From positions 65,016 through 129,015 of the forward strand of contig SJOL01004493.1 of NCBI GenBank assembly GCA_004794785.1: 64,000 nucleotides of DNA, written 5' to 3'. Below are positions 9,196 to 59,100 of the stretch, in pieces (positions within the stretch are counted from its first letter, which is position 1; every line of letters starts with the position of its first letter). This DNA is from Opisthorchis felineus (lineage: Eukaryota > Platyhelminthes > Trematoda > Opisthorchiida > Opisthorchiidae). Under the pieces are notes generated by a model that saw only the letters and a program-made list of their open reading frames with translations, was not told the origin of the DNA and made no database searches. Made by a program: the position numbers and the translations under genes.

Positions 9196-9285
9196 TTTGG
9201 TGATGGACGGGATAATGAGACGAACGCTGGACGTTCTTCAAACCCTAGTGTTCAAATAGCTTCCGACGAAAGCCTTGTTGATCTG

Positions 9286-10939: not shown

Positions 10940-11296
10940 TTTTTTCGCTACTTAACTTTAAGACGCCAGTTTTTAGTTTCAAACGCCTCTGTGTTTTCCG
11001 CTTCCTCACTGACTCTTCCCAAAACTGTGCCCCTATAGGCTCTCCGAATCGCCTTCGAAACTGCCGGTTAGTCGATGTGCGACAAAATTGATGTGAAATT
11101 TTGCGCAACGAATGGGCGTAAAAAATGCACACTTCACCGAACGATTTGGTTCAGGTTGAAGATTGAACCGGATCTCCAAAACTGATGCTCCCAAGCTAAG
11201 TACTTAAAACACGACTGGCCCTTTTCCGTGCGATCGGTTCCGAATTAGATGGTTTCTGTCGCCTTGGTTCCGAAGCACCCATCCACCAGTATGCAG
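10940..11296. repeat. 357 bp perfect direct repeat, copy 2
   Basis: Identical to 1-357 throughout; the match starts within a T run at 10939/10940 and ends at 11296. It lies within the large anoctamin intron, 10,939 bp from copy 1, so the two copies bracket the 4680-4883 exon and LINE A. Confidence 0.95.
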
Positions 11297-17469: not shown

Positions 17470-17660
17470 GAGATAGCTCGGTGGGTTAAAGCGCGAATTC
17501 GCTGACCAGAAGGTCCGTAGTTCGAGCCCAACTTCTGAATCTCGACTGCTCCTGTCTAGGCTCGAGAAACCTGGCAGTATCTCAGCCCCCGTGCTTCCCT
17601 CGGGTGGCATGGCAGCTAGGCACCGGAAGGGTGTTACAGCTGAACGATTATTACTATTAT
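17470..17660 (+). mobile_element. tRNA-derived SINE, copy 2
   Basis: Head GAGATAGCTCGGTGGGTTAAAG, B box degraded to AGTTCGAGCCC, the same body as the other copies, and an ATTATT-type tail. It has a visible target-site duplication: CCAAATGGTG at 17455-17464 and CCAAATGGCG at 17664-17673 (9 of 10 match), which confirms retrotransposition into intergenic DNA. Confidence 0.9.
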
Positions 17661-17673
17661 TCGCCAAATGGCG

Positions 17674-20157: not shown

Positions 20158-20416
20158 GATTCTTGGCTTTTCAGCAAGGATTGCCCTCACTTACAGAACA
20201 AGACCTCTATTACAAAAAATTAGTAGTAAATTCACCATCATCATAATCAGAAACAGCAATATCAATGTTCACACATGCTTGGTTGCCGTACTACTACAAA
20301 GTTTACCTACTTATATTTAGAGCCTTAGAATGAAACGAGAAAAGAGTGGGTGAGGGAAGGAGGGGACTTGGTGATTGTTTATCGCAAGCATTCCGAGGTG
20401 CTACACCTCCAAGCTC

Positions 20417-20707
20417 TCAATCAGACAATCTGTAAAGAAAGTGAGAGCACGAACGCCACTGACATCGATCAGCCGCCATTTCTTGCAGTGTCTTTAGCCA
20501 AGTGCAGGCGGGGTCACGGGAACCCAATACTGGAAGGTGTACCGAACCAACAAAATCCAAACTCTTTGTAATCTCCTTCACACCCTTCTGCTGAGAAATG
20601 CGTCGTGCACCTTGCGGTTTCCGCCATTCAGAAGGAGGCACGGAGAATAATACTCGTCTCGGTAGACGATGTTTCGGCATGCGTAGCACATGGCTCAGCC
20701 ACCACAA
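20417..20707 (-). pseudogene. LINE B RT C-terminal fragment
   Basis: An open frame with LSHVLRMPKHRLPRRVLFSVPPSEWRKPQG, the conserved C-terminal block that in LINE A (RMPNRRLCSS at about 10060) and LINE C (GHVLRILNRS) follows the thumb. It is fused to the upstream RT after loss of the catalytic region. Confidence 0.75.
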
Positions 20708-20816
20708 TTAATGATGCTGGAGTTTTTCCGCGACTGAAGTACCTGCTGCACAAAAAACCGTTTTCTAATCACCTTGTTACTAATCCGTTGACATGATCCA
20801 AAACCAGCAACGCTTC

Positions 20817-21167
20817 TCAGGCATCGGTGATCAAAAACCTGAAGACATTGTGACGCCCAGAAGTATATGAATATAGGGACCGGATTATGCTCACAAACTT
20901 CTGGGGCATACCCCGTTGAGCAAATTTGGTTAACAGCACTGACCGACCGACAAAATCGAACGCGCCCTTGAAGTCAATGAATACAAGGATTGTGGGTCGT
21001 CCGTACATGTGGTATTGTTCGAACACCTGACGGAGTGTGAATATGTGGTCGACGCAGCCTCTACCCGGTCGAAATCCCGCTTGATTCTCACGGGTCAGTG
21101 TTTCGTGTGCCACCGTAAGACGACGAGGAATCAGTGACGCCAGAAGACTTGTTACAACAGGAGTCAA
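20817..21167 (-). pseudogene. LINE B RT fingers and motif A fragment
   Basis: The frame contains TREN-QAGFRPGRGCVDHIFTLRQVFEQ, then RPTILVFIDFKGAFDFVGRS (motif A with the first catalytic Asp), then IIRSLYSYTSGR. The order matches LINE A. It ends in unrelated sequence where the YADD block should follow. Confidence 0.8.
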
Positions 21168-21205
21168 ACTGTGGTTACCACATTCACTGCGAGTACACTT
21201 TTTTT

Positions 21206-21676
21206 TTAAATAGGCACTGTTACCGATTCATCCCAGTTGTATGGGACGGTCTCGTTCTCCCAGATAGACGCAAATAGGCTAGACAGGCACTGACTGAGGA
21301 ATTCGCCGCCATCCTTGATTTCTGGGTCCACTAGCTTCTGAATGGCTAAGCGAGGTATGCGCGTTTTGCATAGACCTGAAAAGCAGCATCGCACAAGTGC
21401 ACGGTCGGAGTCCACGCTGGTGTTCCAGAAGGAGCGGCAAGCAGTGATCGACCCACGCCACCGATAAATGACAGCGATGTGATCTACTTCGATTCGAGGC
21501 TGGTTCGTCGGTGAGCACCACGTGGTCAAGCGAAAATTGGTGCTGCGAAGGAACCGTCTGTGATCGGCACACAGCTGAAGCAGGCGATCTCCGTTATTCG
21601 TGCGTCTCGTGTCCACTCCAAGACAACAACACAACCGGACCTCAGCAGCGCTTAGTTTACCTACATGGGCGTTCAT
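21206..21676 (-). pseudogene. LINE B endonuclease C-terminal half and RT start
   Basis: It begins MNAHVGKLSAAEVRLCCCLGVD, continues LLQLCADHRRFLRSTNFRLTTWCSPTNQPRIEVDHIAV (the C-terminal H-dyad region of APE-type endonucleases), and then passes into DGGEFLSQCLSSLFASIWENETVP, the RT N-terminal block. One open frame therefore still links endonuclease and RT. Confidence 0.8.
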
Positions 21677-21746
21677 GCACCACTAAACACAACGATGCCT
21701 GAGCTTTTAGCTCGTTGTGAAAGAGCACCTAGAACTTCCTAGAAAA

Positions 21747-21938
21747 ATGGCGAGATGGCTTAGTGGTTAGAGCGCGAATTTACTAACCGGAAGGTCCGTG
21801 GTTCGAACCCGACCTATGCATCTAGACTTCCTCTGTCTAGACTTGGGCAACCTGGCAGTATCCCAGCCCTCGTGCTTCCTTCTGGTGGCATGGCAGTTAG
21901 GCACCGAAAGGGTGCTACAGCTGAACGATTTTTTTATA
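21747..21938 (+). mobile_element. tRNA-derived SINE, copy 3 (inside LINE B)
   Basis: The best preserved copy: A-box-like TGGCTTAGTGGTTAGAGCG and a perfect B box GGTTCGAACCC at 21800-21810, then the shared body to GCTACAGCTGAACGATTTTTTT. It lies antisense to LINE B, inside the endonuclease region. The flanks TAGAACTTCC and TAGAAACTCTT may be a decayed target-site duplication. Confidence 0.85.
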
Positions 21939-21955
21939 GAAACTCTTTGGCAGAT

Positions 21956-22297
21956 TCAGAGCAACAGACCGTTGGAGCGTAAGGAGACAAGAAACAGGTT
22001 GCGATGGACCTTGCTTTCTCGAGATACTCTCAGAGACGTTGCCAAACGAACCGAGCAGAGGTGACTATCAACCGGTATCCAACGAAGTAGTGGCGCTTCC
22101 GCTCGGTTGCTCAATACCACAACCACCCCAACATATCCACCTGCAGTGACCTCTGCATCACCAGAGGCTCGCAGCCGGAACCTGGAAGAGAGCGAGGGGG
22201 TAGTCAGTTCAGTTACAGTACTTGCGTCCTGTGTCCTTGTTCCTGACAGACAGCATACATCAATGCAGAGGCAATCCAGCATGCGAGCAAAAGCCAC
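21956..22297 (-). pseudogene. LINE B endonuclease N-terminal half
   Basis: The frame carries CLSGTRTQDAST, GVVVVLSNRAEAPLLRWIPVDSHLC and SRESKVHRNLFLVSL, parallel to LINE A 7325-7650. The SINE cuts it at about 21940. Confidence 0.8.
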
Positions 22298-22870
22298 CTG
22301 TTGTCCTGCTTGTTTCAGCGTTCGAACATTAAAGGCAGCTAAGTAGCTAAGCTAAGGTTTTGAAAACAGACTTCGAAGCGTTTAGCGTTGATATTGAAGT
22401 CGGACGTAGAAAAGCTGCAGCTGAGTGTGATGCACGGTGAACAATGCGGTCAATCCGGGTGCACGGACTGCAGAAAGAGTATTCAAACTTGGATGGGGGA
22501 GGGTAGGAGAGGGGAAACTTGAAAGTGTGAGAAGGGAGGCGGCAGCAGTAGGCTGCTTTCGCTTACGCGCCCTGGTGTGCACAGCAAATAAGGCGACCCG
22601 GCTGGTGACACCACGCGACGGCTGATGTGGCATGAGGGTATTGTTAGTTGTAAGTATCATGGTTGTACGCGAGTCTACGTCTAGACAGGAGGACGATTAG
22701 TTTCTTCAACCAAAGCCTTTTGCTCAAAAGCCTTGACCTCGAGGCAGTGGTGTTTGGCGGGAAGTGCAAGTGCATTACCATTTTCATAAAACAACTCGCC
22801 ACAAATGTTTACATACTCAGTGAAAGACCTACTGGACGATACAGGGCACCCTGGCCAGCTCATGCCCCCC

Positions 22871-24431: not shown

Positions 24432-27239
24432 AAAACAGTTTATGGTGGTTACTAATCTGGACTAGCCGTTTTGCGAAGGGTGCACGCCGAATGAGAAAAA
24501 TAGCCAAAATAACTGGGTTTTCATGTGAAGGTAGTTCACACTTACCATTCAAGTGATAAGGCTATAAGGTAAGACAACACCTAATCGACATCAGTAAAGC
24601 AAAACATAGCCAACTTATTGTCAACTGTGGAAGCCATTAATCAATACTACTATCAGTGAAATAATCCAAGAAATATCAAATTCCATGCTAGCCATGTTTT
24701 GAAGTGAGGAGGCGTGTCTTCCGTGTTCTGAATGTGTATCTGTCTTCTCAAATGTTGCCTTTTCTAGGTCTTTCCCTCGTTCATGACCATTTACTAAATC
24801 CTCTGCAACCCCTTGCTAATCGGCTTGTTACATTCACATGCAATTTTTCTGACTCGCGCGTGCCAATAATCTCATGCCCACCTCGCCAGTTGGTGCCATA
24901 GACCGTATTGTTTTCAGTGGCAAGTAAATGTACCTTGTTTTGGTGTGCAATCAGATCGGAGTACCAGATGCGACTTGAGCCTATACCAGGTGTATTTTTC
25001 TATCTCATGTTGCTGTACCCATTAATGAAGAGGCACGCCTTGTTCAGTCCTATGAGGTCCATTTAACATCAAAGACATAACCTAACCGATGATCCATCCA
25101 TGAAACTTCTTTGTGGAAGTAGAGTAGTGATGGATATGTTCGTTTCAGACGCATAGTGTGCGCTATTCCCTGGAAAAATGGACATAGACCGTCCAACCGC
25201 TGTTAGGTGCACCAGGGTAGGTTACATGTTTGAGTGAGATTTCGACCAATTTCTATTCGGGAATCTTCATTCACCTGTTAGCGAGGGCCTTCTTTGATCT
25301 AAGCATTGAGCAGTTACCACGCGCTTCTGCCAAATCCTGCTCATTGGTACTAGGAAACCAACTGCAATTACACGACGATGAATTTGCAGTTAGGTGGCCT
25401 CAGGGTGAGTCCCACTATGACTGGTTTGGGATAGTCGATTCAAGAATACGAAAGCCATACCACTGTACCCCAAGAACCGTAATTTCAGGAGTACAAGTTT
25501 CGCCTGACAGGTTTCCATCGGCGGTCTAGTGAAGGAGTTTATAATGCATCTGACTAGGTATAGTTTGGTATCACCATCTGAACGCATTCTACTGTTGTGA
25601 AAACTCTGCTTCTTTTTCCAGCAAAAAGTGTGTATGCAAACACTGAGAGATTGTACACAACATTTGCAACTTGCTGTCCACTACTATTATGTTAGCATTC
25701 GACTACTAATAATAAGTGTGACGAATACTCCTCTGTGATCGAACACCCAAAGGCGTTGATAGCAATATCCGCTGTTACCGTTCGAGTATTTATACCAGTG
25801 CATCCATATTACTACAGCCTTCACTGACCTATTCAGTGCGAGTGTTTGCTCGAAAACTTGGTTTAAATGAATGGTTGACTCAAAACCTGGCCTCGCTGGC
25901 ATCACTTCAACCATTCTAATAGGGATATTCCGAGTCATTAAGACACAGAAAACGGAAATTTTCCAACAGGCAACACATGTTGGTTTCGAACTTTTTTCCG
26001 TGTGTCTCTTAGAAGGCGACTGGACAGTACGTCATAGGTTTTCAGGAATGGAGACGACTTCAAATCAAAACTTCAGTGAACTCTCATACCGGACCCATGC
26101 CTCATCTCTCAGACATTTCAAACGGAAGTTTGATCCTATACTAACGCTGTCTAATTTAGACTCATGAGTACTGTAATCCTTAACTACTTTGCCAGTATTC
26201 CTTTATTATAGAATATATGCACATTTTCATTCATGCACTGTTGTCGTCAGTGGTAATGACTTCAAAAAAGCTGCTGTGGAATAGCTTCAGATGTCTCAAC
26301 CACTCAAGTAGGATGCAAGGAAATACGCAAATATCACAGTTTCGTTTCAGAATAGCATTATCTTCGGCCCAGTCACCTGGTTCACAATAATTCGCTTGGG
26401 TTGAGTGGAATGCAGATGCGTTGCGAAGATGGATCCAACGTTTGACGCCGAGGTTACTGGAAAAGCAAATTGAGAAATCAAAAATGCTGCGTTTATAAGA
26501 CGTACTTTTTATCCATGCACTGGAAGAAGTTCGAAAAACAACACATTATCAACTGGCACCAATAAATTGAGCAATATTTTGATCCAGTCATACCTCAAAA
26601 AGATAGAATTCATCGTGGCCAAGTCATGTCACTCAAATGAGTGTTTTCTCGTGTGACAAACATGTGCATCAAATGAGCTGGATAAGCAAGACGGTTCTTA
26701 CCAAATCACTGTGGCAAAGTCGCATCCATCTCAAAATCGTGCGGTGCTATGTAAGCTAAACGTGTACTTCGTCATGGAACTCATATTACAAGCACTTGTT
26801 GAGAAGCGCAGTTTACAACACTACAACATCACTTTCAGCCACGACATCCAGCCAGTTAGCATTACACATAGGAAAAACAAAACACCTAAGTGAAACGACA
26901 TGGTCACAGTCACTTCACTCGTACAGTCGACCAATAAACCAATCAAGCTCACGATTGGTTGTCACAACAAGTAGGCTTTTAGTGCTTATTCTATGCTGGC
27001 TGAATCTGTGACCGACAGCCACAGACTTTATTGGTTTATCTAGTTAGATTCGCTATTCGGGTCCAGGTGAGCGGATTACTCTGCTTTGAACCCATCACTA
27101 GCATATTTTAGTTCTGCTCTACTGAGTCTTTGCAATTTTGTTGTGACTATTTTAAATGGGGTCTGCCAAATTCGCACTCAGTCAAGTTAATCAAAACGAC
27201 ACGCATGCTTGGCTACCGTACAATCATAATTTGTTTGAA
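22871..27239. other. Intergenic or intronic DNA, one weak exon candidate
   Basis: No recognised gene. The segment includes an (AT)n tract. A weak + strand exon candidate exists at 25282-25404, between TTCACCTGTTAG and AGG|GTGAGT, encoding about 40 residues with LPRASAKSCSLVLG. I could not assign it to a family. Confidence 0.3.
24384..24426. repeat. (AT)n microsatellite
   Basis: Uninterrupted AT dinucleotide run of about 43 bp. Confidence 0.98.
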
Positions 27240-27540
27240 AGTCTTACTGTGAAGAGAAGAATAAAAGCGGATGGGGAAAGGACTTAGTGCTAGCCTACCA
27301 CAGTCATTTCGGGGTACCTATACTTCCAGACACTCGATAGAAATTGAACAAAAATGCCATCGAAATCCATTAGCAGCCATGTCTTGCGTCCTCTCCAACT
27401 ATGTACAATGAGGGTCATACGTACCCCATCCTGTGAGGCGATTCGCATCGACATTACCCAGAATTTCCGTAACCGCTGCCAGGTCAAAGTCTGACCTTAT
27501 GCCACTCTGAATTGGGCAGAGAAATCGGTAGACTTCCCTG

Positions 27541-27771
27541 TTAGCTGCGATTCAGTATCCGCAATACATGACCGAACCGTAGCTTTTGGTGCTGGACGCA
27601 TTCTTCGACTGAAGTCCCCTTTGTACAGTCGAACACTCGCTTTCCAAAGGTTTCACTTATGACTCGCTGGCACCGGCCTACACAAACCATGGTTCTCCAA
27701 CGTTTATCGAAGACCTGAAAACATCTCATTTCCGCTGCTCGCAGAGGCCACGTCTCACAGCCATACAACAA
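27541..27771 (-). pseudogene. LINE C RT thumb/C-terminal fragment
   Basis: The frame LLYGCETWPLRAAEMR.FQVFDKR, then GTSVEECVQHQKLRFGHVLRI, corresponds to LINE A 9840-10075 (LYGCEIWLVRTAELRCLQFFDNR, GTSIEEYVHQHKLSW). The agreement between two decayed copies identifies the family. Confidence 0.8.
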
Positions 27772-29607
27772 AATAGCCGTAGTATGGGTTGGTGTACATG
27801 TTCCTTAAGATTCCGGGATATGCCGCACTGTCATTATGGGTGCTTTTAACGAGATCTGCGCCTTAATGTTTCGTGCAATATCCTCACCTGCCTCTCCTTT
27901 GATTTTAAGTGACCTGTTCAGTGACTCTAAGTCTAAGAGTATGGCCTTACACTTTTTGAGTAAAAGTGCAATCCGAAGGACGGGATGACTTTGGTCAGCT
28001 CATCCAAAAAAATCCGTACTTTATTTTCCTCTTCCGAGACAAGGACGATGAAAGCATATTCCAGACCGGCAAGTTTTTATCAGCAGCTATTTGAACATCA
28101 GGGTTTGGTCTCATCATATCCTCGCTCACGAAATTGAATGGACTTCCCTGTCAGACACCTCTTTGTGTGCGACAGCTTTTAGAGATTTATCGGTATACTC
28201 TGCAAGCTTGAGAATCCAAAAAACCTTCGGTGAATTCCTTACTGGGCCAGTGTGGTGATGAAAACAGATCGGTCGACTTAGTCGAATGCACCTTTGAAAT
28301 CCAGGAACCCTAACATTTTGGGTCATGTGTACGTATGGCGTTGTTTTAACACCTGACGGAGTGTCAAGATTTGGTCAACGTAACCCCTACTAGGCCGAAG
28401 TTTGCTTGTTTCTCCCGAGTCAATGCTTCACGGGCCACCCTAAGGTGACAAAGGAGAAGTGATGCTAAGAGTCTCGTTTCTACTGGAATGAAGGTGCTCG
28501 CCCTGTGACTTCAGCACTCTATACCAACCCATTTCTTAAGACTGGGCATTATTACCGGTCCTCCTCAGTTGTATGAGGCAGTCTCGTTTCCACAAATGGA
28601 GTCGGATAGACCAGGCAAGCGATGACTGAGGACTTAACCCCGTCTCTGAACAATGCGGGCGGCAGGTCATCTGAACCAGTAGATTATGAGATAGTATATG
28701 CAGTCATAAACCCCCGAGTTCTTAGGGGGTTTTAGATCCACCGTCCAGGGTTCTAGCGCAATTCGAAAATCCAAATGAAGGGCAGTAGGTTACTACCAGA
28801 TTTTTTGTTCAAAGCACTGATTTCGGCGATCTGGATAGTTTCATCCTTGAAAGTTTTGGGGCCGGTCGAGAAGATCGAACGGAATAATAATCAGGCATTC
28901 TAGCCATTTTTCGCTTCCTCCACTTTCCTCCATTTCCACCAGACTCCACCTTCAGTGAGTACGCCAATTTGCACTTGAAGTTCAATCATTTGCCGGTGAA
29001 AACACTTCTTGGAGATTTAAGCGGTACCACTGGTCTGTCTGACATCCAGTGTTTGGGTGAGGTTGACAATACAGGCGAAACTCTCAAATTTGTACTAAAG
29101 TGTGGCGATCTCTTTTCAATGCGAATTGACATCCGACAGTAGATCAGTGGAAAGAGAATTCAGAAAGCGGTTATGACAAATTCGTTTAACTTCAAGATCT
29201 GCCAGCCTGCGCTGCCAAGCTAGTTGTCCGCCCTTTACACTGCTATAGAAAACAAACAGAGAGGCATAGTCACAATACACACATCTTTTCCAAAACGAGC
29301 GCCAGTCGATTATTGGACTACGCCATCTGTAACTGAAGGTGATATGATCAATTTGGGTCCGTTGCTAGCACGCTGTTGGAGGACACGAAGTGGCCAGACG
29401 ACTTCGGTTATTTTGGAAGTTACTACTGCATAAAAATAGTTTGTGGTCAACACACAGCCGTCGTTCACCGTTGTCCATACTTACCGAGTCCAACCCAAGT
29501 GAACCACCCAGCTGAGTTCCAGACGCGCTGGGTCTGAGAAACTTATGCATTGCAGTCTGCGCCAGTCACAAATGTATCTGGGCTTCTAGCCCGCCGCAAC
29601 AGGGCAC

Positions 29608-29946
29608 TCAGTGCGTCATAAACCTTGTTTTGTTTGTGTCAGTGCTACAGTCGGCTGAGATATAAGTAGGCACGATAAACAGACAACGGTCAGCTTCCCA
29701 TCTGTGAGACTTCTTCACGGACGTTTCCATATGAACCGCACAGAGGCGACTATCAGCTAATATCCGGTCAAACAATGACCTCAGAGCCCGATGACTTAGG
29801 ACGATGCCGATCCCTGCATAGCCTGTTACAGCAGCAACTGGATCGCCAAATATCAGCAGCCGGAAGCGAGAAGAAAGTGAGAGGGCCGTCGGCACAACGT
29901 TTATGCCTGAGTCTTCCTTCTGATACGCAGCATACATCCAGTCCAT
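29608..29946 (-). pseudogene. LINE C endonuclease fragment
   Basis: The frame contains IGIVLSHRALRSLFDRILADSRLCAVHMETSVKKSHRWEADRCLFIVPTYISADCSTDT, aligning along its length with LINE A 7400-7640. The frame starts only after a change of frame relative to the preceding 5' block. Confidence 0.8.
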
Positions 29947-30500
29947 GAGAGTCCATTGATTAGGTGAAGCCAGCCTGTTGTCCCGCTTGGTTCATAGTGT
30001 GAACATTAAAGGTAGTCTAATAAACCTGGCATTGAAGCTTGAAGATGGATTTTGAGATGCCTGAGGTTGTCGGCGCCAGCTGATGCGCAAATGTTGCGAC
30101 CAAGACCGATGCAAGACGAGTGAGGTTATCACTCCCAATGAACCTGCCAGAACAGTATTATTAATGGTGTGGAGGGAGAAGAAAGATGAGATGCATCAGC
30201 AATTCTTTTCTCGCTTACCCGTCCTGAGGTATGCAGCAAGGAAAGCGACCCGAAGTGGCATGAGCTTAAGTCTGGTTGTAGCAGTCATGGGTGTACTCGT
30301 CCTGGGCTACTGTCATGGTGCACGAACCTAGGCTCATCAACCAAAAGCATGACCACAAAGCAGCAGTGTTAGGCGGAACGCCACTGCACTACATTTTTCT
30401 AATGAGCAAGACGTCACACGTTCCGACCCCCAACATGGAGTAGTAAGGACTGTGTTGGTTAGACCTATAAGCACTGACCAACCAGGTGAGAAACAGTGAA

Positions 30501-33500
30501 TTTCGCATGGGCACCCCGCACTACAACTCAATGCGTCACGGAAGCACACGAACCGCCACACCACGGTAAAACCCAGGCTTTCCATGATGAGCTTTATTGT
30601 TGCGTTCTTTGAGGTCTGCTTATTGTGGTATCCCAGTGAATTGATTTTCAGATTCACTGGAACTGTTCCTCCCCTCATGGTGAACATTGCTTGTTTGGGA
30701 CAGATCCTTTGGGAGGTTACTGAAGTGACTTTTAAAAGAAATAGCGTCTTAATTCTGAAGGTGGCTGCAGAATCTGTGTATATAAACAATTTTGGTGTAC
30801 GTATACGGCTTGCTACATCCTACTTTGTGGATGTATAATGTAGTTTTGTCAATAAATGCTACACATACCTAAATGTAAATTCCACGAGTCATTATGATAT
30901 GAAGAGGTTGTTGACATTTCCTGACCGCGAATTTTTATTTAAATCAGTATTGGAATCATACAGTGTGCCATCCATGGATTCAAAAGTGGTGTCTGATCTT
31001 AACGCGGAGGAGAACTGATAATGGCCCACGGAACTATTCGAATTTCGCAAAATCCCAATTTATTATCTATGCGATTCATTTGGGCTCTTTGAGTGTTGAT
31101 TCTGTCATAGATGTGTCTGCAATAGAGCAGGCTTACTTAGCCGCCCTGATAACATTTCAGCTCATCTGAATTAATTGGTTATTCTGAGTGGTGAGAAGCC
31201 ACTATCCGTATATGTTCCCGTTAAGGACTAGACTGGTGACCCATCGTTTAAATGCAGATCGAAGCATTAAATAGCGGCATCGAAATGTACGCAATGGTAG
31301 GTTAAAACTAATAATGGTACGATGCATGTTAAAACCGATGCTAATATTATTCGTCACACAGCAGCTCAGTCAGTAAATGGGATTTTATCACCAGACCTAC
31401 AGTCGCCAATTGTGTAGTGGATTTATAAAAGGCCTATAACACAAAACTTAATGAAAGCTACTACGTAGGTGTCGGGTCAGATGTGACGGAATATCTCTCA
31501 GGCGACACAGTCTCATTGTAATCCAAAATCCGCATATTGGAAAGACTCACTAATTACTCTATTCTTGTATTTGAGGACGGGTTTTCTCTGCCTATGTTAC
31601 AAAGCATCTCGGGGTAAAATAAGTCAAATCAACTCGGGCACGACAACACTAGGACTCAAGCTGTTCCCCAGTCAGCCAGAACGATACGTCCACAGTCCTT
31701 CGAAAATTATGCTTGATGCTAAGAACTTCGAAGTACTCTGTATTTAGGATTTAGAGTACATGGATCTCGGTTCAAACTTCAGTGGCTGAAAATCAAAGTA
31801 CGATCTGAAACCTTGTATGATCAGGTCGGAAGGATCTACTATAAGATATGAAAGCAGACCTCGTAAGCTGTTGCCACCAGAATAGGCACAGTCCTGCGTT
31901 TAGCAAAATCCCATCGCACCACAGCAAACACACGAACTTATGACCCTGCGTAACAGAAGTGGCATGATATTGTCTTTCAAATTATTGCCCTTTGTAGATG
32001 GATTTTTTATCACATACGATTCAGGCACCGAGACCCAACGTAACCTGCGACAATCTGACTCACCATATTTGTCGCTCAGCCTCTTGTGAGAAACAGAGAA
32101 GGAAGTAGAACAAGTAGGACAGATCTATCAGCGTGTGCACCGCAAAACCTATGGCCAACACAATCTACTGACTCCTCTAGTCTTGTGGACTTAATGTACA
32201 GACATAAGTTGATTAGAGTTCTACCTTGTTGAGCCTACAAGCTTTGCTCAGGTTTTGATTGCAAATGACTACTCAGAAAGACTCATACGCAGACGCTTTA
32301 ACATGTCTACCACTTCCACGTTGCCAAGTGCCGCGAATTTGCCTAAGAAACCCTTATTCACAAAACTGACATTCAGAAGCGACTTTGTCTCTTGGACGAT
32401 TGCATGAAGGCTGTCAAAATTAACACGAAGGAATTTTATAGCAGCACCATTAATTGTCCATATCTGTCGTAGCTTACTGCTCACCATAGATCCGAAGTAC
32501 AAACTACTGGTTGATTTATTCATTTATTCATGTTGTACTGCAAGCCATTTGGTTCGTACGACCGAACGAATTAACAGGGCCATTACGGTCCACCTAGTTG
32601 ACACCAAACATCAGATCAACCCAGCTTATTCATTCAGTAATAGTCTTCCTGTGCTATCAAACCGATTGACAGCCGTCCGTCAATGCCTGCTGATGGCACC
32701 TGAAAGTATGGCCATTCGGCCGTGCAATCAAATCCTTTGTTCCCAAAAACGACATGTGTTCTTGGATTTATCTTGCCTACTATTCCGAATCGTGCTTCCT
32801 AATCGTCCTACCGGAATTCGCAGTCGTCCTTACGCATTAGTTTTGACCAATCATTACATTTGATTACCTGCGTTGCTCCCCTTTAGCTCTGTTTTAACCG
32901 TGGATCACCACTCAAGTCGTAAGAGAAAGAAAGACTGTTTTGTGTGCATTCGTAATTCGTAATTCATTTCGAGATTTTCTCAGTCACTATCGTCAACAGT
33001 AGTTTGAGTGATCCTTCTCCAACCCCAGTGCGAATAAGCCGGTTAGTCTGCAGCATAGTAACACCAACGAAGTTGAGTTTCGGTCTGATTAGGGTTCGCC
33101 AGCAGTACGCATCTTCGGCCGTTCATCGGATGCGCAGAGTAATTGTTCGCCAACACACCCTGGAATGTACTTGAATTTTCTTGTCTAATCATCAACTGAC
33201 ACTTTATTCCCAGCAAGTAATGCGCTGCATGTAATGGATTTCCTTCATCCATTTTATCAGCACAGCGGGAAGAACTATTACGGGTTGCATGCTTTTTAAT
33301 GAAACTCATCAGCCGCACACAAGTATCCAAGCCAGACATTCAACAGTTACCAGTGACATGCGCACATAGCAAACAAACTACATGTATATAAGCATTTCAC
33401 TTAGATTAAGCCAAGTGATATATGCATTAGCTACGTAGAAATTTCCAGTTACAAACCGAGTTTTCAATCTTCAGGCAGACTAAACCTAGGAAACATTTTT

Positions 33501-33639
33501 ACGTTTTGTGTCACGCAACAGACAGCTTGGAAACATTCGGTGACCGCGACACAGAACGAAGATACTGTGATCAGTTTGGCGGAGTGTTTCTTTAAACTAG
33601 CACCTCTCCAATGCAAAATTCGAGTTTTGGAGTTACAAT
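30501..33639. other. No confidently assigned gene
   Basis: Two minus-strand frames (32269-32523 and 33043-33339) contain phrases faintly like ankyrin repeats (FAALGNVEVVDMLKR; DEGNPLHAAHYL), but the repeats are incomplete and I see no good splice sites. The rest shows nothing recognisable. Confidence 0.3.
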
Positions 33640-33870
33640 CATTTACATACTGATTTGGTTTCAACGGAAGACTCGACTGAATCCAGCTGAATCCATCATT
33701 TATGGTGTTAGAACGCAATTAGTGATTAAATGAGTTACTTCGCATAGTTCGTCCAATTTGGGTTGAAGCAGAACATACGGTTGACGAAGACTCGGGAGAA
33801 AAACCGATAGTGGACCTTCGAACAGTTTTCAGCAATCTTATGGGTATCATTGAGTACAATTCGATTTGTT
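33640..33870. repeat. Hammerhead-type repeat family, remnant (33.7 kb)
   Basis: 33740-33870 (+) matches the 43.1 kb element: GAACATA.GGTTGACGAA.ACTCGG before the gap and TTCAGCAA.CTTATG after it. The ribozyme core between them is deleted, leaving only AAAAACCGATAGTGG. The adjacent 33640-33715 resembles the element's CAGCTGGATC..TTTATG part in the opposite orientation, so two remnants lie head to head. Confidence 0.55.
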
Positions 33871-39800: not shown

Positions 39801-40256
39801 AACTAAAAATAGAGGATGGTAACTTTTACATCAACTCGGAAATTTCTCCGAATAATCGGAGAGAAACCGATGGCACACCAGAATCCCGTTCCGCTTGCAC
39901 CAGCGTCAGGCGGGAACTCGCTAGCGCAGTGAGACTCAGGTGAAGCCCGTGTTCCATTTTCTCGATAGCAGTCACATTATGCCGCTATACCACGTTACCA
40001 GCCGTGGACTTCCCACTCACTTGTATGTATCATAAAGATACTGATGAAATATTATAGATCTTTTGGACATCTAAGTGTACAAATAGACGAAAATGGGTTG
40101 GACACATTTAGACATTTAATGACGGGAGTGATCAGTCTCACTTTCCAACCCCAAAACAGCCAATGATTCCCGCCCCGAACGGCTGTTCACTTCAAGCTGC
40201 CACTTCCATATTCAATAGTCCAAAAAGCATTTATAGCTGTTTTCTTCATTGAGAAA
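33871..40256. other. Long non-coding stretch
   Basis: AT-richer DNA with stop-dense frames. Apart from the small membrane-protein frame at 35309, nothing recognisable was seen, including in the 35.9-38 kb part, which has no long open frames at all. Confidence 0.5.
35309..35485 (+). CDS. Possible small single-pass membrane protein, 58 residues
   Basis: The frame starts at an ATG in good context (A at -3, G at +4; AACATGG). It encodes a polar Ser/Thr-rich N-terminus (residues 1-20), a very hydrophobic helix of about 23 residues rich in Leu and Ile (about 22-44), and a short C-terminal tail ending DMLQKP. No family is recognised. It could be a micropeptide, a first exon or chance: hydrophobic runs arise easily from TTA/ATT-rich DNA, and the helix is encoded by such codons. 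No AATAAA or splice sites were found that settle it. Confidence 0.25.
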   Translation: MDKSSSYTSTGYSLQTEQLGLGYALLMGLCLIILIIIAIITILLHSPALFFTDMLQKP

Positions 40257-40600
40257 ACTACTCGTAAGGTGGATGAAAACCCTTAGAGAGCCCACGACCG
40301 ATTTCGTCCTTTTTGTGGCCTATCAGGTGAGCTCAGTCCCCGAGATTCCGTCAACCTTATGTTCTACGTGAACACCAAATTGTACGCAATTGCAAACTAA
40401 TTTTGAGTAACGGGAAACCCAAATGAATCTCATCTGGACTTCTCGTTCTTGATATTATTTAACTAAATGTGCTGCACAGAGACCACCTCACGGTCCAGTT
40501 GGTACATTCGAGATAACATACCAACTGCAGCATTCATCTGAAGAATATCGTGAACAAGAGACTCACCTGGGATTGACTTGGGTCTCATGTTAGCGGCATT
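40257..40600 (-). repeat. Hammerhead-type repeat family, damaged copy (40.3 kb)
   Basis: Read on the minus strand it contains GAACATAAGGTTGACGGAA, then CTGATA, a GGCC...AAAAAGGA stem-loop, CGAAA, TCGGTC and GTGGGC: the same order as the intact copy at 43.1 kb. The conserved CTGATGA is changed to CTGATAG, so cleavage is unlikely. Beyond 40527 a second piece runs in the opposite direction. The junction carries an inverted repeat, CAGTTGGTA...TACCAACTG (about 40497-40528). Confidence 0.7.
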
Positions 40601-41662
40601 TTCATTTATAAATGAGTGGATTTTGCCAATTAATTGAAGTTGCCTTTTTCATCCTTTTCTCCAAAGAATATATTTCCCAGTCCAAAGGGCTGCTTGCGCG
40701 GCGAGTATGTGACTTCCAAAGGACATAGAGCGGAATGGTATTTTGATGCGCGTACTCAAGTCAGCTTTTTCGATTCCTAATGCCTAATTTTATCTACATT
40801 TGGTTTTACCGTACATCGCGACCAGTATTTTAACTCTGACATTTTTAGCGCACTACCTGCTTGTCGGTCATTCCACGTCTCCCTTTTAATATGGATTCCT
40901 ACCACGGCCTCACTTCGTGTCCTTCCCCCAACATTCGGCGCGTTTTGGTCATATTTTTAGCCGCGAATGGATCGGTCGTCAAATCAGGCGGATCTTATCA
41001 GGCAGGACAACTGACATACATATCAGTGTTACACTGACGCTAAATTATGGCTGAAATAGATTAATTCTTGAATTCACCACGCTAGTCTTTATATGTCACA
41101 ATTATTCGCTGGCTTAAAAAGGGGAGCACAAAAATAGTTAGGATCGACGCACTGCAAGTCGCTTTTGATCACTTTCCCGACGATGATTTTGTCGTTTTAA
41201 TTAGATGGATAACTAGGTTGAACTAATTGCTTGCCTTCCTTATAGTTCTACTCACTTAGATAACGGTATTCGGCGATTATCCTACGGTTGTACTGGTTCA
41301 ATTCATTCACGGGGCTTCAAGTTTAGTAGACGTCAGGCACATGGCAGTGTCCTAACACATATCAGAAGGTCATTTAAAAAGCAGGAGGTAGTTATGCTTT
41401 CGTCACTTTGTTTGGAATGCTAAAGAAACCATGATTTCCGTTTACCTTCCTGTTCGATTAAGAAAATATTTTGAAGTCTCTTGAAAATGTTTTCTCGGGG
41501 AAAGTATCCTGTACGCTCTGGCTCAAACCGGCTGGGCTATATTGGTCACCTAAATAACTTGATCTAAACTCTGTCTTAACAAACCAGTCTGATGAATTGT
41601 GCATTTGGGAAGGGCTTACTTTGATTCACTTAACGTCCGATACCAACTATCTCCTTCATCAG

Positions 41663-42246: not shown

Positions 42247-42919
42247 ACGTCACTGACGCCAGGACCATACTTAGGTTGCGATGATACCCTCATTGCTCCT
42301 TGGTCCTGCATTCTGACAGTTAATTTCTAACCTCGATTTTTGTGCCATATCGTTGCTTCTCCACACGTCTGCTTGGAAAGGCACGTAGGACTTACAAGCA
42401 AAATATCGTTCAGTGACCGTATGTGGTCTTTTGCCTTGTCTGGATGGCTGGACGAACTGCATTTGACCTGAATGCGGGGACCCGTTGCGTCATCACGCCA
42501 CCGTTAGTCCGTACAGTACGCTCTAATTTCATCTCCCGACAGGTGCATTTTCTAATACACTGAACCTACAGCCTTAATGGGACTGTAGAAAAAACAAATG
42601 TTCATGTTTATCTTGAGCTATTCATGGCTGACGAGCACAATATGAGCGCTTCACAACCGCAGTGTGGCATTACTTTACCACTGATTGGAACCAAGTAGTG
42701 CCCTCTATTCCAAACCAGCTATTCAAATTTCGGGTTTTCTCGATTCACCTCAATTATCTGCCAAAATTTCACGAAAATATACGCATCTGTCTTTTTAAAC
42801 TGCACTACCTTTTGACGGAACATTTTCGAGATCGATCATTTTATGATGAAGTTGCTTACCAAATCCACCTCTCGAAATGTTTGTGATTGGATAATTCAGG
42901 CATTTCTACACTATCTCAT

Positions 42920-43215
42920 TAGAATAGTCTCGAATATCGTAGCAACTGGAACATGAGGCGGCCTGGTGCAGCACATTCAGTTGCATAGAAACATCACAAA
43001 CGAGAGATTCAGTTGGATTCTAGGTGAGTCTCTCGCAAAACCAAATTGATTTGCAAATGAGCGTATTTCTTGAAAACAGTCTGATTTGGGTTCAATTAGA
43101 ACATAAGGTTGACGAAAACTCGGGGACTGCGCCTGCCTGATGAGCCCCAAAAAGGGCGAAACCGGTCGTGGGCTGTCGAAGAATTTTCAGCAACCTTATG
43201 AGTAGTACATTGCGC
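42920..43215 (+). mobile_element. Hammerhead-ribozyme repeat element, best copy (43.1 kb)
   Basis: The element of about 300 bp shares a body with the 56.0 kb copy: AACATGAGGCGGCC, GGTGCAGCACATTCAGTTGC, and GGTGAGTCTCTCGCAAAACC. An inverted repeat follows, CATAAGGTTG (43102-43111) and CAACCTTATG (43191-43200), enclosing a complete hammerhead core. No RT frame is associated. Hammerheads are known in Schistosoma repeats, Penelope-like elements and retrozymes; this copy is most like a small non-autonomous element of that kind. Confidence 0.75.
43131..43173 (+). ncRNA. Hammerhead ribozyme, apparently intact core
   Basis: Stem I is GCCTGC (43131-43136) with GTGGGC (43168-43173), six pairs including two G-U. 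CTGATGA is at 43137-43143. Stem II is GCCC (43144-43147) with GGGC (43154-43157), closed by a CAAAAA loop. GAA is at 43158-43160. Stem III is ACC/GGT (43161-43166) with no loop, which is palindromic and therefore suited to a dimeric hammerhead. GTC at 43165-43167 predicts cleavage after C43167. Every conserved core base I know of is present. The very short stem III suggests poor activity as a monomer and activity as a dimer, as described for short-stem-III hammerheads of animals. Confidence 0.8.
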
Positions 43216-44492
43216 AGTCTTTTGTCCACTTATGTGACCACCAACGAATGATCTTCCTTTCACCTAGTCGGGAATCGCAGGCATGACTAGTTACAATCAA
43301 GATTCACAGGGCCACCAACCCTGTACTCTGCTTCTCCACCGTCAATAATGGGAACAGATACGATTCACAGGTTGAAGATGGAACATCTAAACGTGTTCAG
43401 GTATGTTTGACATGTAACCGTCGGCTCCTTATAGATGCTCACTGTACTTCCGAACCCAAAAGTGTACCAGTGACTGAACGACACCAATTGAAGCATTGTT
43501 CAAACAGGGCTTTGCAATGAAAAATAAAAAATCTGGTGCTAGTTCATGTAGGATGCGTTGACCAAATTGTTGTCAACATTACTTAATTGCATCTGGGGCC
43601 TGTTAGTGCTCTGGTGTAAACGTGATTAAATTGTTTATCAGAAGGTGACAAGCACTAACAAATGTCTGTTTGACCAGAATGATGATGATTACAATGGTTA
43701 TGTGCACTTGATAAAATTAAACACAATGCAAGAAGGGAATAAGCCAAAATGTGACCTATCGTCTGAGGACAACTGTTGAGAGTTTCTGAGTGAGGTTCCG
43801 GACACGGGACGTGTCTTCTCTGCAGTATGACTGCTACACGTGTTCCGTAGTTGTTCGTGCAGACTTGTGGAGCTCGGTTGACTTCCTGTCCTGTGTGCAT
43901 GCCTATTTATTGTGTGCAATATGAAGAGAGGGGTGTCCATTCGTGTATGATAATTGCACGAACATGGATACAACTTGACCTGATGTGGTTGAAGTTCGTA
44001 AGTCTGGCGCATGACGCAGGCGGTAGCCGCGTAAACAAAATGGATGGGAAATTGTAGTGTACATGTTGCCGGTTAAGGGTGCAAGTGGGACAGGAATTGT
44101 TACGCGATTTGAGTGTTTGTAACACGCAATCTAGTGAGTGATCGCTACAGGCCAATCATGAAGTCGAAATTGGTACTAAATTTAGTTATTCTAAATGCAA
44201 GGTTAGTTCAGAAATCAATGATAATCCAGTTGTGTTCGTTTATATAGCGGTGTATCATAAAGAATAAATCCAAATATAATACCGGCTGGGCAAAACATCA
44301 ATATTACTTTGATCTGTTTTGGACTTCACTGACGGAAATATGGTTGTATACAAAAAGCTCAGCCAAGTAAGGCCTCTCTTTCTTCCTTGATGTAATCCTA
44401 TTTATAAAGTTGACGAAAACTCTTCGACAGCCTGATAAATCTTCCGTCATTAGGTAGGCGTTCTCTTTAGTTCTTTCTTGAACACCAAACTA

Positions 44493-46620: not shown

Positions 46621-49600
46621 GTTATAACTTTGCTTGGAAGTGCTCAGCTGACACTGACATCTTGGATTCGAGTTGTCACCAGCTATTGCGGTTTCGCAAC
46701 TCTCCTAATCATTGACGAGTTTCCGCCAACCTTCTTAATAATAAACCACATTATTAAAAATACTGATACTCATTATGCACAAGCCGGTGATCTGGAAAAT
46801 CACTCTACTAAACCCGTGTCCTGATTACGATTACTCAGATGAATGTAGCATAGCAAATGTACAGTGATTTGTTTTTCAAAGACGTCTTTTTCTTAAATTA
46901 TCACTTATGACTATTCACTGGTACGCATATTCACAAAAAATCTCCGCCCACGTGCTGAACCGAGCAAAATCCCCTGGCGCTTTGCCTGGTTTATTTTGAT
47001 AGTCAGGGGATAGCAGTTACTTTCTCAGTTTACCTAATTATTGTTCTGTCGGTTGAACGCTCGGTCAATTATTTAGTTATTTTAAGCTCTGACTGCATTG
47101 GAGTTAGCTATTTGTTAATCCACGTTGGTAGAACGTTGCTACGTAAAAAGGGAAAAAGGTACCGCTTTTAACTGTGTGCATTCAGGTGACTCAAGTATTT
47201 ATTCTCCGTCTGTAGAATGCATACTTCTGAGCTCGACTCGACAAAGTACACATCTGTCCGCACTGTAGCTCAGTTTAGCTGAGGTTAAACGCAAAAGATC
47301 CGCGGCGAAGGTAGTCAGAGTTGTTAGGCCATGGTTGTTTTGACCAGCCTATTTTAGATACAACGCACCAAAAGCCACCTACGTAGAACGTGTCTCTGAA
47401 CATAAATTTAGCATCTCAGTTTTGTCCTCTATTGTAGGTTTATGGTGCCTGCGAACCTTGGTTTTGGTTTAAGGGATCCGAAATACGTGACTGGTTGTGG
47501 GTAACACAAGGGCCAATCCATGTTTGTGGTGCTTTCATCCGGTCTTTTTTGTTGAAACACGACTTGTCCAGGTTAGAGAGAAAAGAACCAGAATGTATTT
47601 AGAGTTGAACACTCATTTGTAAACTAAGTGTTGGCGTGCTACCTAGCTGGCTTATGATAATCTTAATTCGAACGTGCTGGATGAGGCCCCCCATTGTTCA
47701 ATCAGGGCCGATATTCAGGAAATCAAACCATCTTCCTGATACGACAAGATTGATGAAGAGTTATTGGAGAGTCAACTATTTTCGAAGAAATCAAACCCAT
47801 TGAGGCGGAAAACTAAGACCCATCTCGAAATATGACAAAACAGCCGTTTTTTTACAACTGGTGAACTGCATGAATGTATTCGTGTAGATAGATGCTTGGG
47901 TACATTTCGCATATGCGTAAGCATATACCGTGAGCTAGATTTCTGTTTGCAAATAATGCACAATTCATATGGTGTACTTCCAATTTCAGAGAATCTCTCC
48001 ACCTGTGCTAAAAGCAAGCAGATGCAGCTAGCGTTTGTTTTTCAACCATAGTGTGAAATACCAAAGAAGTTGATATGTGTGGTATATGATTTCTATGACT
48101 ACATCAATTTATACGCTTAACTGTCTGGGCATCTCTTCTTGGATCAGATAATTTCTTTACAGAACTGCATCTCCTCAGAGAATTTATGCACCTGTCCTCT
48201 TCTGAAGAAACGAACCTCGCCGAATAGATTGCTTTTGATAGCTAGTTCGGGTGGCTTACCATGAAAGAGGCATGGCAATAATCATTCACCTCGTAAGCTG
48301 AAAACCACAGCAACATAGTTTAACAGGCACGAGAAAAGGGAGATCCCTAGTAAACTGTCAAATGTGTTTGACAAACAAACTCCACAGATTTAAAATAACT
48401 CTCCTTTGAGTTGGTCTCTAAATTAAGTTTGTGGGCTTTATCAGGAAAACGCCGTCTTCATCCACCTTTGCTGAGTCACCTCACAACCAAACGATATAAG
48501 CAATCAACATTCTTCCAAAACTATATCCTTCTGACGGACGCCAATTGGAGTCAGAAATAAGGAATGTCCCTTCATTACCGGAAACCCTACTAAAGGTCAA
48601 AATATTGTCTAGACAAAAATCGTCAAGGCTTTCTTTGGCCGTCTCAACTACTACTTACGGATACTTACGGATATGCTGAAGCACGGAGCACGTTTCTGAC
48701 AAGAGATTGGGTTTCGCTTGTCTAGAAAAGTTTGAGCCACAACATGATACACTAACCGTCACAACCACTGAAAACGTGAAAACCAACACTGAGGGTTTGG
48801 ATAGCGTAAAGGCAAACCAAAATTTTCCAGATTAGACGTGTCTGATTAGATTTTTCTCCGGATAAGCCAAACAAATGTTCCTTGGAATCCGTGCAGTGTA
48901 AATTAAAAAATCCCGGAAATATCACAAAATACACCTTATCACTAACAAAGGTACTGTCGGTGACTTAATATTTCCCAGCGCACTATGGATCTTTTATTTA
49001 TGTTAAGATAGCTTATGGTCAGTCGCGATGACCAAAACGAACCTTAGAGTTTGTCGGGCCACATTTAAATATACATCTGCAACAGTCCAAGGTTGTCCAA
49101 AAAATTTAAAGCGTTTGTTGGGCTACTTGATGCGTGCACTTTGACTGGTTGTGCCGGTTGTTCACGCACAGTCCGTAAGGATGGAATACCTCAAAGAAGT
49201 TTGTCAGTCCCCGGTGGAGAACTGGTTAAAAGCACCTTATCCAGAACAGACTTCATAGCTTGCCCATTGACTAGAAAATCCGGTGGGGCTACAATATGAG
49301 AAGCGTACAAATTTTCAAAATCACATGTAATATCTGGAGATCGGGTTAGCACGCTATAAGCTTCATAATTATTGAGTCGGTCGTGAGAATTATTGGTTCT
49401 TCTGCTGAAACTACCTCACTATGCACCAGTAGCCAGATCATCTGAATGAGCCAACAGATGGCTAGACCCAGACTCGCACTAAATTAAATTTTTCCGGTAG
49501 TAAAAGCTGACCAGCAAGTGAGTGACCTGCTGTGAACAGTCTTGGTGTCCAACGCTAAGCAGCCTTTATTTGCTGACAATCGTCATCCCTGTACACTTCA

Positions 49601-55859: not shown

Positions 55860-56225
55860 ATGAAACACCTCCTGTAATATACCTTGTTCGAGTTCAGATA
55901 GATACGAAAAATTTAGTGAATGAGAAGCTTGTGAACATTTTCTAACCATTATGGAAACTGTACAAATGTATTTCAAACGACACGTGTGTAGCCAAGTACA
56001 CTCATTTGCAAACCAGTTTGGTTTTGCGAGAGACTCACCTGGAACCCAGCTGGATCTCTCGTTTATGATGTTTTTAAGCAACTGAATGTGCTGCACCGGG
56101 CCGCCTCATGTTTCAGTTGGTACGATATACGAGATATCGCGATACACGTATAGACATAATACACTACTCATAAGGTTGCTGTCGAAGAATTTTCAGTAAC
56201 CTTATGCGTAGTGTATTACGTCTAG
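55860..56225 (-). repeat. Hammerhead-type repeat family, core-less copy (56.0 kb)
   Basis: Read on the minus strand it has the stem pair, then ATCGTACCAACTGAAACATGAGGCGGCC, GGTGCAGCACATTCAGTTGC, and GGTGAGTCTCTCGCAAAACC, matching 42920-43075 at roughly 85-90% by eye. In place of the ribozyme core only TCGAAGAATTTT remains between the arms. The stem pair therefore forms a near-perfect palindrome at 56155-56224. Confidence 0.75.
56155..56224. repeat. Imperfect palindrome, arms about 28 bp
   Basis: AATACACTACTCATAAGGTTGCTG and CAGTAACCTTATGCGTAGTGTATT pair with two mismatches across a 12-base spacer. It is the collapsed stem of the hammerhead element after loss of the core. Confidence 0.85.
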
Positions 56226-59100
56226 ACACGTGTGTAATTTTTAGCCCCAGACGACCTCGTTGCCCCGCTCTAGTCCACAGCCGATTAAAAACCTAACTTA
56301 CAAGATACGTTGACCCCATCTTAGCAATACACAGATGACAGCCTCTGCAACGCGGTCGGGAGCGCATATCAAGGACCGATATTTCTTATTTTGGCATTCA
56401 ACACGAGAAGTTAGATGACCCATTAGTAAAATCAGTCAGAATGGAAACGTACCATGAATCAGGTAGATAAGCTGGGCTAACCTACAGCGAACATACGAAT
56501 GATATATTTGACACCACGCAGTGTAGATCGACCAACAGTGAAATGGGAAGCAATGAAGAGCTGATATTATTGGGTGAACCAACGGACACAGTGTAGCACT
56601 CAGCTTCCGCTGCACCAGAAGTCGACTAAGCAATATGTCGAGTTATGCACCCAGACTTCACTTTCGGACACGTCTGAATACGTGGCATTATGCGATAATC
56701 CTAAAATCCTGAAGGCTATTGGTTCGTCAGATCTCCCTCAGTATTTGGCGATCCGTGATGGCTTCCGCGAGTCTATCCTCAATAAGACAAAGGGACACAA
56801 TCACTATGGAGTCATTGCCACTTCCTCAAGCGTCTTGTCTGTTATCCTTGGTTCTTACGAGAATGAGTGCGCAACCCCGGAACAAGTATGACAGAAGCAA
56901 GGATAAGACTATTGTCTCATGTTCATTAAGTGCGACCGGTTAATTTCCATATGAAGTTTCACTGACTAGTCTTAAACAAGCCGAATCGTGTATTGCAGTG
57001 CTGGCGTACGTTCTGATCACACATGTACAATCAGTATCTCATATGTGCAGGTGAACAACAGAAAGAAAAAGTACAAAATATAAGGACGAGGGTCAAGTGG
57101 TCCAAACATAAAATAAATCGGACCGACCATCAGTAGTTTGGTCGTCAGTGACTTTAAAATCCGAGGCCTTCGTCTCTCCTGAACCTTGAGCAAGGACCAT
57201 TGGGCTATTTTATACAGCCTGACAACCACTATACAGGTTCACCAGGTGGTAATAGTATGTGCCGGGCACGGATATGCACGTTCATTGAATATATGGGGCA
57301 TTCAGTGGACACCATTATGGACACTATTTTAAGTACCCCGATAACACACTTCATAGAGCGTGAGATGCGTTTCTTATCGGTCAGTTCCCACAAGTAAAGC
57401 ACCTCCATCTGAAAGCTGGTTTGGACTCACCTGGAAGTGTTTCTTCGGAGTCCGAAGCCCCGTATTCGAGAAGCAATTCCGTTCCCGTGGTGTAATCATT
57501 TTGGCATATCGTGATACGGACATGTTGATCACATCTAAAGTCAAACGATTCGTGACTTAAAACTGGAAGGTATAAGAGCTCATCAAGATAATGAAAATCT
57601 GTGATTACTGAATCTCAGTCAAGAATCGGCGTATCATTTTCAGAGGATATCAGCAACCATTAAGAGCCAAACTGTAGCACTTCTTGGATTTATGAACTGT
57701 GGCATATAGTGTACATGCGGAATTTATTGATCCCGTTATTCTCAAATTCCCCGCAATGCACGCGGAATTGGGTGCTGCAGTCTCTGGATCCGGTTGCATT
57801 TGAGCTGCACCTCGGATTCTACATGAAAAAAACTTTATCAACAGTTACGTCAATGTTGTCGTGTTTATGTAGGAGACTTGAGATCTTCAGAACACTAAAC
57901 ACCACCTTGAAGAAACGGTTCTTTTTTCCTTTTTTTCCTTTTCACATTGTGAAGACCGTTTCCCCGCCCTATAAGAAACCTTCACCTACGAAACGCCTAA
58001 AAGGGAATACTTTTGTTATTCACTTTTTCGTTTCGATGTTAGCATGAATATGCTAACAAACTCTCATATGAATCGACGGACAAGCACTTTAGACCAACAG
58101 CACAACATTTATGTGTGAACAAAACAAGTCGTACAAGCCGTTAACTTGACGTCATTTAGCTTGCTACATAGAGTGGAGTGGACCAGGTTCCACTCATCCA
58201 AATAACAGGCCACAGTAACTTTGTGCGCAATAAACCTCGTCATTTGTTCAGTCAATGAACCGATATTAAGTGAAAATTTAGCCTTCCGTTGAGGAGACGA
58301 AGATCGGGCATCTTAGTAAAGCAGGACAAATCAACCGAAACAGTACGAATACTCACGTTGTGGGCCATTGTATGACCACTAGAAGACAGTTCGTGTAAGA
58401 AAAAACCTAAAGGCGGTTTGTCCAAAGTGAAGGAATATAAAAGCTATTTAGCGCACTTCAGTAATTCTTCTGGAACATTCAGATTGCATTCTTTTGATGG
58501 CCATATCCGTTTGTGAGATCCGCAGATAATAGAGACTAGACCTTTGTTAGATTTCGGCTGTTAGCAATAATTCAGAGTTAAAGGCAGCTAGAGTGCTCAC
58601 GAATGTTGTTCCGTGTGAGAGCCATCAGCACGTTAACCACTGACCAATAAACACGATCGGCAGCACCCGTTTTCAGATAGTTTCCGTTTGTTTTGATTCG
58701 GAAATAATCCCCGAACGTACTAACTATCTTCTGTGCCGTTATCCCTGTATACTTCCTATTTACACTGACTGCCTGTGTCTGTACCTTTGTATATTATTTG
58801 GTACTTACTTGTTATTGCTTCCAGTAAGCCCTGTCACCTCATTGCCCCCTTTTTTGCCCCTACCGATTGTTGATTGTACGTCCACTTAATTTGTGATGTT
58901 TATTGACCCATTAGTTCAAAGACCCAAACTATGTTGTGGGTTACCATCATTTCTATGTACATTCATAGCATGCTATAAATGATGCAAATCTAATATCAGC
59001 GAGAGGTCGTCATCCTAAAATTCGAAGTTGCGGCCCTAGAAACTCCATCGCTTGTCCCCACTCTCGTGCCGGTTCGTACCTTTCGGTATTCTACCCAGCT
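56226..59100. other. No confidently assigned gene
   Basis: A + strand frame at 56574-56891 (ALCDNPKILKAIGSSDLPQYLAIRDGF) looks more protein-like than its neighbours and ends close to a GT, but I do not recognise it and its acceptor is unclear. Nothing else stands out. Confidence 0.3.

Follow-up and report, generated by a model that had tools for sequence, protein, structure and literature searches.

We wondered whether the hammerhead-like sequence near 43.1 kb of this window (the whole stretch of DNA that was analyzed, 64,000 nucleotides) is a genuine ribozyme motif, and what kind of element might carry a hammerhead whose stem III has no loop. The motif was read directly from the sequence, and both strands of the window were scanned with a full descriptor that demanded the core and minimum stem lengths of 5, 4 and 3 bp. 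The site comprises the following features.

43131..43173, + strand: minimal type I hammerhead core, comprising stems I and II and a palindromic stem III (ACCGGU) without a loop (direct reading, descriptor, Rfam HH9)
43102..43200, + strand: outer imperfect hairpin prolonging stem I (CATAAGGTTG/CAACCTTATG plus inner segments) (fold; paired-cell counts on A, B and D, the repeat copies listed below)

On direct reading, stem I is formed by GCCTGC (43131-43136) and GTGGGC (43168-43173), two of its six pairs being G-U. CTGATGA lies at 43137-43143 and GAAA at 43158-43161, stem II pairs GCCC (43144-43147) with GGGC (43154-43157) around a CAAAAA loop, and GTC at 43165-43167 places the predicted cut after C43167. 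Stem III consists of A43161-T43166, C43162-G43165 and C43163-G43164 and encloses no loop base. This is the composition of a type I hammerhead, with a CUGANGA/GAAA/UH core, stems I and II, and its open end at stem I. The original prediction of an intact hammerhead with all parts in order and a stem III of just ACC/GGT was therefore reproduced, and the full descriptor returned this motif as its single match on both strands of the window. First-order Markov simulation of 300 windows of equal length also produced a match in 2 of them, so the bare descriptor by itself is significant only at roughly p = 0.007. CTGANGA...GAAA as a bare pattern was not enriched in the window (9 matches, 6.0 expected). 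An exact-pattern scan for the stem II signature gave no matches (0 + 0), and is little informative because the collections scanned were viral and prokaryotic.

The covariance-model check proposed along with the original prediction gave a match, but one under the gathering score. Rfam Hammerhead_HH9 (RF02275) matched the motif with 34.2 bits (E = 7.7e-5 for the 64-kb window and 4227 families; E = 6e-7 over 501 nt only), and no family reached its gathering score in the window. For HH9 this score is 52, a cut-off set by curators that lies outside the chemical definition of a hammerhead, and the model provides for a loop III, which the motif lacks. The alignment skips the 5-nt loop III of HH9, and loop II and the core of the motif are close to the HH9 consensus. 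Of the other matches below gathering, mir-506 is the foldback of copy C described below and mir-1277 sits on a TA microsatellite at 44.5 kb; both were set aside. As a sequence motif, the hammerhead at 43131-43173 is confirmed as it was read earlier, the covariance match being stronger support than the descriptor. It goes beyond chance because it lies inside a repeat family and because its outer flanks prolong stem I as a long imperfect hairpin.

The repeat is interspersed and non-coding. According to blastn and nhmmer, the window contains copy A, which carries the motif, three further sizeable copies and two fragments.

42927..43212, + strand: copy A, body and hammerhead segment, 286 bp, the only intact core in the window (blastn; nhmmer 303 bits, profile built partly from A)
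40251..40515, - strand: copy B, full-span, with a degenerate hammerhead (CTGATAG core, 2 of 4 pairs in stem II) (blastn, nhmmer, alignment)
55982..56136, - strand: copy C, body, 89% identity to A over 141 nt (blastn, nhmmer, alignment)
33681..33854, + strand: copy D, hammerhead segment, the first part overlapping an inverted piece and weakly aligned (nhmmer, alignment)
47609..47700, - strand: diverged body fragment of the repeat (nhmmer 18.1 bits, E = 2.7e-5)
44397..44432, - strand: fragment of the hammerhead 3' flank, on the + strand also readable as the 5' flank (nhmmer E = 0.0062, blastn, repeat scan)

The nhmmer profile was built from copies A-D, whose own matches are thus given by construction; blastn with 42500-43700 alone already recovered B, C, D and the 44.4-kb fragment. 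Copy A has a GC content of 45%, and A and B are 73% identical across 282 aligned positions (blastn). The changes in the CTGATAG of copy B fall on G8 and A9 in the usual hammerhead numbering. Copy D has lost the 5' side of stem I, CTGATGA and the 5' side of stem II together with its loop, and copy C does not take in the core stretch. Within the window, the core is intact in one of the three copies spanning the core region (A, B and D) and in one of the four sizeable copies. The expectation of a core conserved in other copies was not borne out here, which argues against functional conservation. A tandem partner or tandem array of the repeat was not found in the window, where the copies are single and dispersed. 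At the 44.4-kb fragment, 44404-44432 (+) begins like the hammerhead 5' flank and continues as the complement of the 3' flank; it may be an inverted piece or represent another version of stem I.

Copies B, C and D each adjoin a partial copy in opposite orientation, and direct repeats were compared around the insertions.

40525..40628, + strand: inverted partial copy of the body, lying head-to-head with copy B at a distance of 10 nt (nhmmer 30.6 bits)
33626..33713, - strand: inverted partial body copy beside copy D (nhmmer)
56148..56227, no single strand: foldback combining both orientations of the hammerhead 3' flank, upstream of the copy C body (inverted self-match, sequence, alignments)
55979..55990, + strand: 12-bp direct repeat GACACGTGTGTA, candidate target-site duplication, one side of copy C (repeat comparison)
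56225..56236, + strand: 12-bp direct repeat GACACGTGTGTA, candidate target-site duplication, other side of copy C (repeat comparison)
33617 and 33858: candidate 7-bp duplication AATTCGA flanking copy D and its inverted piece (repeat comparison)

The inverted partial copy beside C is one foldback arm (56178-56220). At B and D the inverted pieces end at profile position 143, near the forward end of copy C (150). No inverted partner of copy A was found above threshold; a weak match of A to its own complement, 43035-42975 (E = 0.089), reflects a quasi-palindrome in the repeat body at 43000-43035 (about ACGAGAGATTCAG...GAGTCTCTCG) that copy C has as well. The 12-bp repeat around C is perfect, and with zones picked after the repeats had already been seen, 12 bp was reached by 0 of 20000 random zone pairs and the 7 bp seen around D by 280 of 20000. 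An 8-bp repeat near copy B was rejected as a target-site duplication since one of its copies falls inside the inverted fragment, as was a 7-bp match around copy A (42897, 43278), which starts 30 and 66 nt outside the ends.

Copy C runs from ~258-282 through a ~19-nt linker to 1-150, as against 1-282 in A and B. Judged by this order, it looks circularly permuted relative to the other two, as expected if the template was a circular or multimeric RNA. The forward 258-279 piece of C is identical at 19 of 19 positions by blastn (E = 9e-4 in one search, 0.002 in another) and falls below inclusion in nhmmer (E = 0.082); being part of the foldback, it might have an origin other than a circle. Arithmetic joining of the two orders would give a repeat unit of ~307 nt between successive cut sites, with a linker that is present in C only and a whole that is present in no copy.

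Penelope-like elements (PLEs) have a reverse-transcriptase gene, with or without GIY-YIG, between pseudo-LTRs, and inverted partial copies lying beside the main copy are a common arrangement for them. Their presence at B, C and D would suit a solo remnant of a pseudo-LTR, left by an autonomous PLE with its hammerhead near the start of the reverse-transcriptase gene. An absent or very short stem III is also typical of PLE hammerheads (PMC6155905, PMC7761336). Against such a remnant stand the homology between copies, which ends ~40-45 nt past the cut site (43206-43212), and a region from 32.9 to 63.5 kb that has no open frame of at least 130 aa. Moreover, 8 of the 11 listed frames were compared with Pfam and reverse transcriptase appeared in one, as RVT_1 at 20.8-21.2 kb. 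We consider an origin as a PLE remnant unlikely.

Other features of the window were recorded in passing. An anoctamin exon-like ORF at 14102-15037 (+) shows 93% identity to Clonorchis sinensis Anoctamin-10 across 88% of its length and matches Pfam Anoctamin; the next among 6 matches is from Echinostoma, with 56%. The DNA thus probably comes from Clonorchis or a close relative, an opisthorchiid-like fluke. The segments 1-361 and 10940-11301 form a 362-bp direct repeat with 99.7% identity, the closest among the repeat pairs listed. Diverged repeats in both orientations occupy 7140-9570, 17470-17661, 20359-22351 and 27205-30569; they are presumably LINE fragments, and the Pfam RVT_1 match at 20820-21227 (-) lies within this set.

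The fold of 43105-43200 reaches -34.8 kcal/mol (z = -2.8), with none of 200 shuffles as good. Across copies A, B and D, 90.2% of the cells of the outer helix are paired; for the whole structure the figure is 89.5%, against 34.9-47.5% with partners slid, although a structure taken from one of the rows usually outscores slid versions simply because of that derivation. Covariation on these three rows and 33 pairs gave zero double-sided changes and did not exceed that of shuffles. Copies A and B differ at three pairs of stem I and one of stem III, all still pairable, and at two of stem II, where pairing is broken; counted across all 33 pairs, 6 changes from A to B keep pairing and 6 break it. A circular fold of 42928-43214 has z = -2.84, with 1 of 200 shuffles as good.

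The absence of a covariation excess, the broken hammerheads of B and D and the descriptor matches in simulated windows are what one would see if a hammerhead-like string had arisen by chance or decayed in an unrelated repeat and had never been catalytic. Set against this are the window-wide covariance match, the closeness of loop II and core to the HH9 consensus and the fact that all stem I differences between A and B keep pairing, and we regard a never-catalytic string as very improbable.

Because loop III has zero bases, a monomer of the motif cannot close stem III, and the self-complementary ACCGGU cannot form a hairpin. A stem III that is too short for a monomer and self-complementary across copies is the hallmark of the minimal dimeric (PLE-type) hammerhead. 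When two copies of 43125-43177 were co-folded without constraints, they formed two hammerheads sharing a 6-bp ACCGGU helix III, with a minimum of -39.3 compared to 2 x -17.8 kcal/mol. This matches the proposal that folding relies on pairing of two copies as far as geometry is concerned, but the energy gain is not special: of 397 random hexamers put in place of ACCGGU, 53 gained at least the same dimer energy. The gain is hence no sign of selection, and geometry is what counts. The corresponding stretch of copy B co-folds into a non-hammerhead structure with a similar gain (-37.1 compared to 2 x -17.0, 3.1 kcal/mol). Since some random hexamers equal the energy and copy B gains without hammerheads, we discarded dimer energy as evidence for a dimeric hammerhead, in which role it is weak. 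We infer that the 3.7 kcal/mol modeled for the motif is small for two free molecules and fits tandem copies in one transcript better. A single hammerhead co-opted at this site and acting as a monomer, like the HH9 ribozymes that originate from amniote introns, is scarcely credible, for although HH9 is the best Rfam match, a monomer could not close a loop III of zero bases, the locus is one among several repeat copies and 43 kb has no established gene context.

We therefore favor, with a probability of about 0.68, a dispersed, non-coding and non-autonomous retrozyme-like retroelement of an opisthorchiid-like fluke, with a unit of ~307 nt and a minimal type I hammerhead like those of Penelope-like elements and retrozymes. 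This reading draws on the intact core and stems, the HH9 match, the further copies and the pairable differences between A and B in stems I and III, as well as on the unconstrained dimer co-fold, the stable circular fold, the 12-bp repeat around C and the permuted order of C. Against it stand the lack of a tandem array in the window, a core intact in only one of four sizeable copies, the zero double-sided changes and the even split of compatible and breaking changes. Further points against it are the unexceptional dimer gain, the shortness of the forward piece of C and its private linker, and the direct-repeat candidates around A and B, one outside the ends and the other inside an inverted copy. 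As in metazoan retrozymes, a type I hammerhead is placed in a non-coding unit of 170-400 nt (286 bp in copy A, ~307 nt inferred). Tandem genomic copies, as a dimer or longer, belong to the definition of these retrozymes and the window holds dispersed single copies, which is why we speak of a retrozyme-like element and not of a retrozyme.

In the retrozyme-like element we propose, multimeric transcripts would bring two hammerheads near each other, and the ACCGGU segments of neighboring hammerheads would pair into a common 6-bp helix III. Each core could then cut after its own GUC and release unit-length RNA, which may be circularized or serve as template for a reverse transcriptase acting in trans, probably a Penelope-like one. 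The 43.1-kb locus itself, standing alone and with no second intact copy in the window, is probably a fossil whose own transcripts would undergo little cleavage, if any. The predicted cleavage may be aided by a protein, since a PLE hammerhead of Anolis was cleaved only in the presence of the PLE protein (PMC11167929, which also mentions earlier PLE hammerhead self-cleavage in 3-25 mM magnesium). More tentatively, this could be an undescribed retrozyme-like family of opisthorchiid-like flukes whose permuted dispersed copies and head-to-head inversions would be the trace of a ribozyme-made RNA circle or multimer copied by a reverse transcriptase of Penelope type. Genomic junctions of such a short dispersed family with permuted and inverted insertions would reveal the RNA form that was copied; otherwise, the repeat is one further fluke repeat in a known class.

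How does the element compare to known systems? The original prediction suggested a possibly undescribed family. This repeat family was not met in a limited search of the open literature, but its kind is well described, so the novelty is at most that of a new family in an opisthorchiid-like fluke. Among the matches listed for trematode, Clonorchis, Opisthorchis and Fasciola, no paper on a hammerhead repeat in opisthorchiids appeared; the search covered open literature, and supplementary lists could include the family. In its excerpt, PMC3653858 names both hammerhead and Clonorchis as unrelated mentions.

The original prediction held that dimeric hammerheads with a short stem III are known from animal repeats; motifs of this kind are already on record from PLEs, newt and axolotl repeats and Schistosoma W-elements. 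The minimal type I hammerheads of PLEs (Cervera and de la Pena, 2014; Lunse, Weinberg and Breaker, 2017; via PMC7761336 and PMC6155905) share the canonical core and the very short or absent stem III of the fluke motif and are thought to cut as dimers, helix III being usually absent (PMC7761336). They map to pseudo-LTRs of elements coding for reverse transcriptase, whereas no reverse-transcriptase gene was seen beside the fluke motif, whose unit is ~0.3 kb. Type I hammerheads of PLEs/Terminons and retrozymes co-occur in all genomes analyzed in one study (PMC7761336). Metazoan non-LTR retrozymes resemble the fluke repeat in their type I hammerhead, 170-400 nt unit, GC below 50%, self-paired fold and, in some, weak helix III (PMC7229834), and the stable circular fold of 42928-43214 agrees with their self-paired circRNAs. 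They are tandem and those of invertebrates are mostly reported to cut efficiently unaided, in contrast to the dispersed single copies without loop III found here (PMC7229834). Rfam HH9 has core, stem II and CAAAAA loop in common with the motif, and HH9 alone has a 5-nt loop III. The type I hammerheads of newt and axolotl likewise have a weak helix III and are efficient as dimers, and hammerheads with a weak stem III are described as acting in dimeric form in newt and viroid motifs and in axolotl constructs; they reside in amphibian repeats, with axolotl monomers of ~330-350 nt (PMC7229834, PMC6155905).

In platyhelminths, retrozyme-like repeats with type I hammerheads have been reported (PMC7229834). 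Schistosoma W-elements are satellite-like families, likened here to the fluke repeat by description (PMC8490949). Among the S. mansoni W-element hammerheads, a CUGANAA candidate was inactive, and copy B has the same change at that position (PMC8490949). W25.2 and W36.2 are also fluke repeats with an extremely short stem III, and of the five W-element candidates tested, three cut in vitro, all with an intact core; for the remaining two, inactivity had been predicted (PMC8490949).
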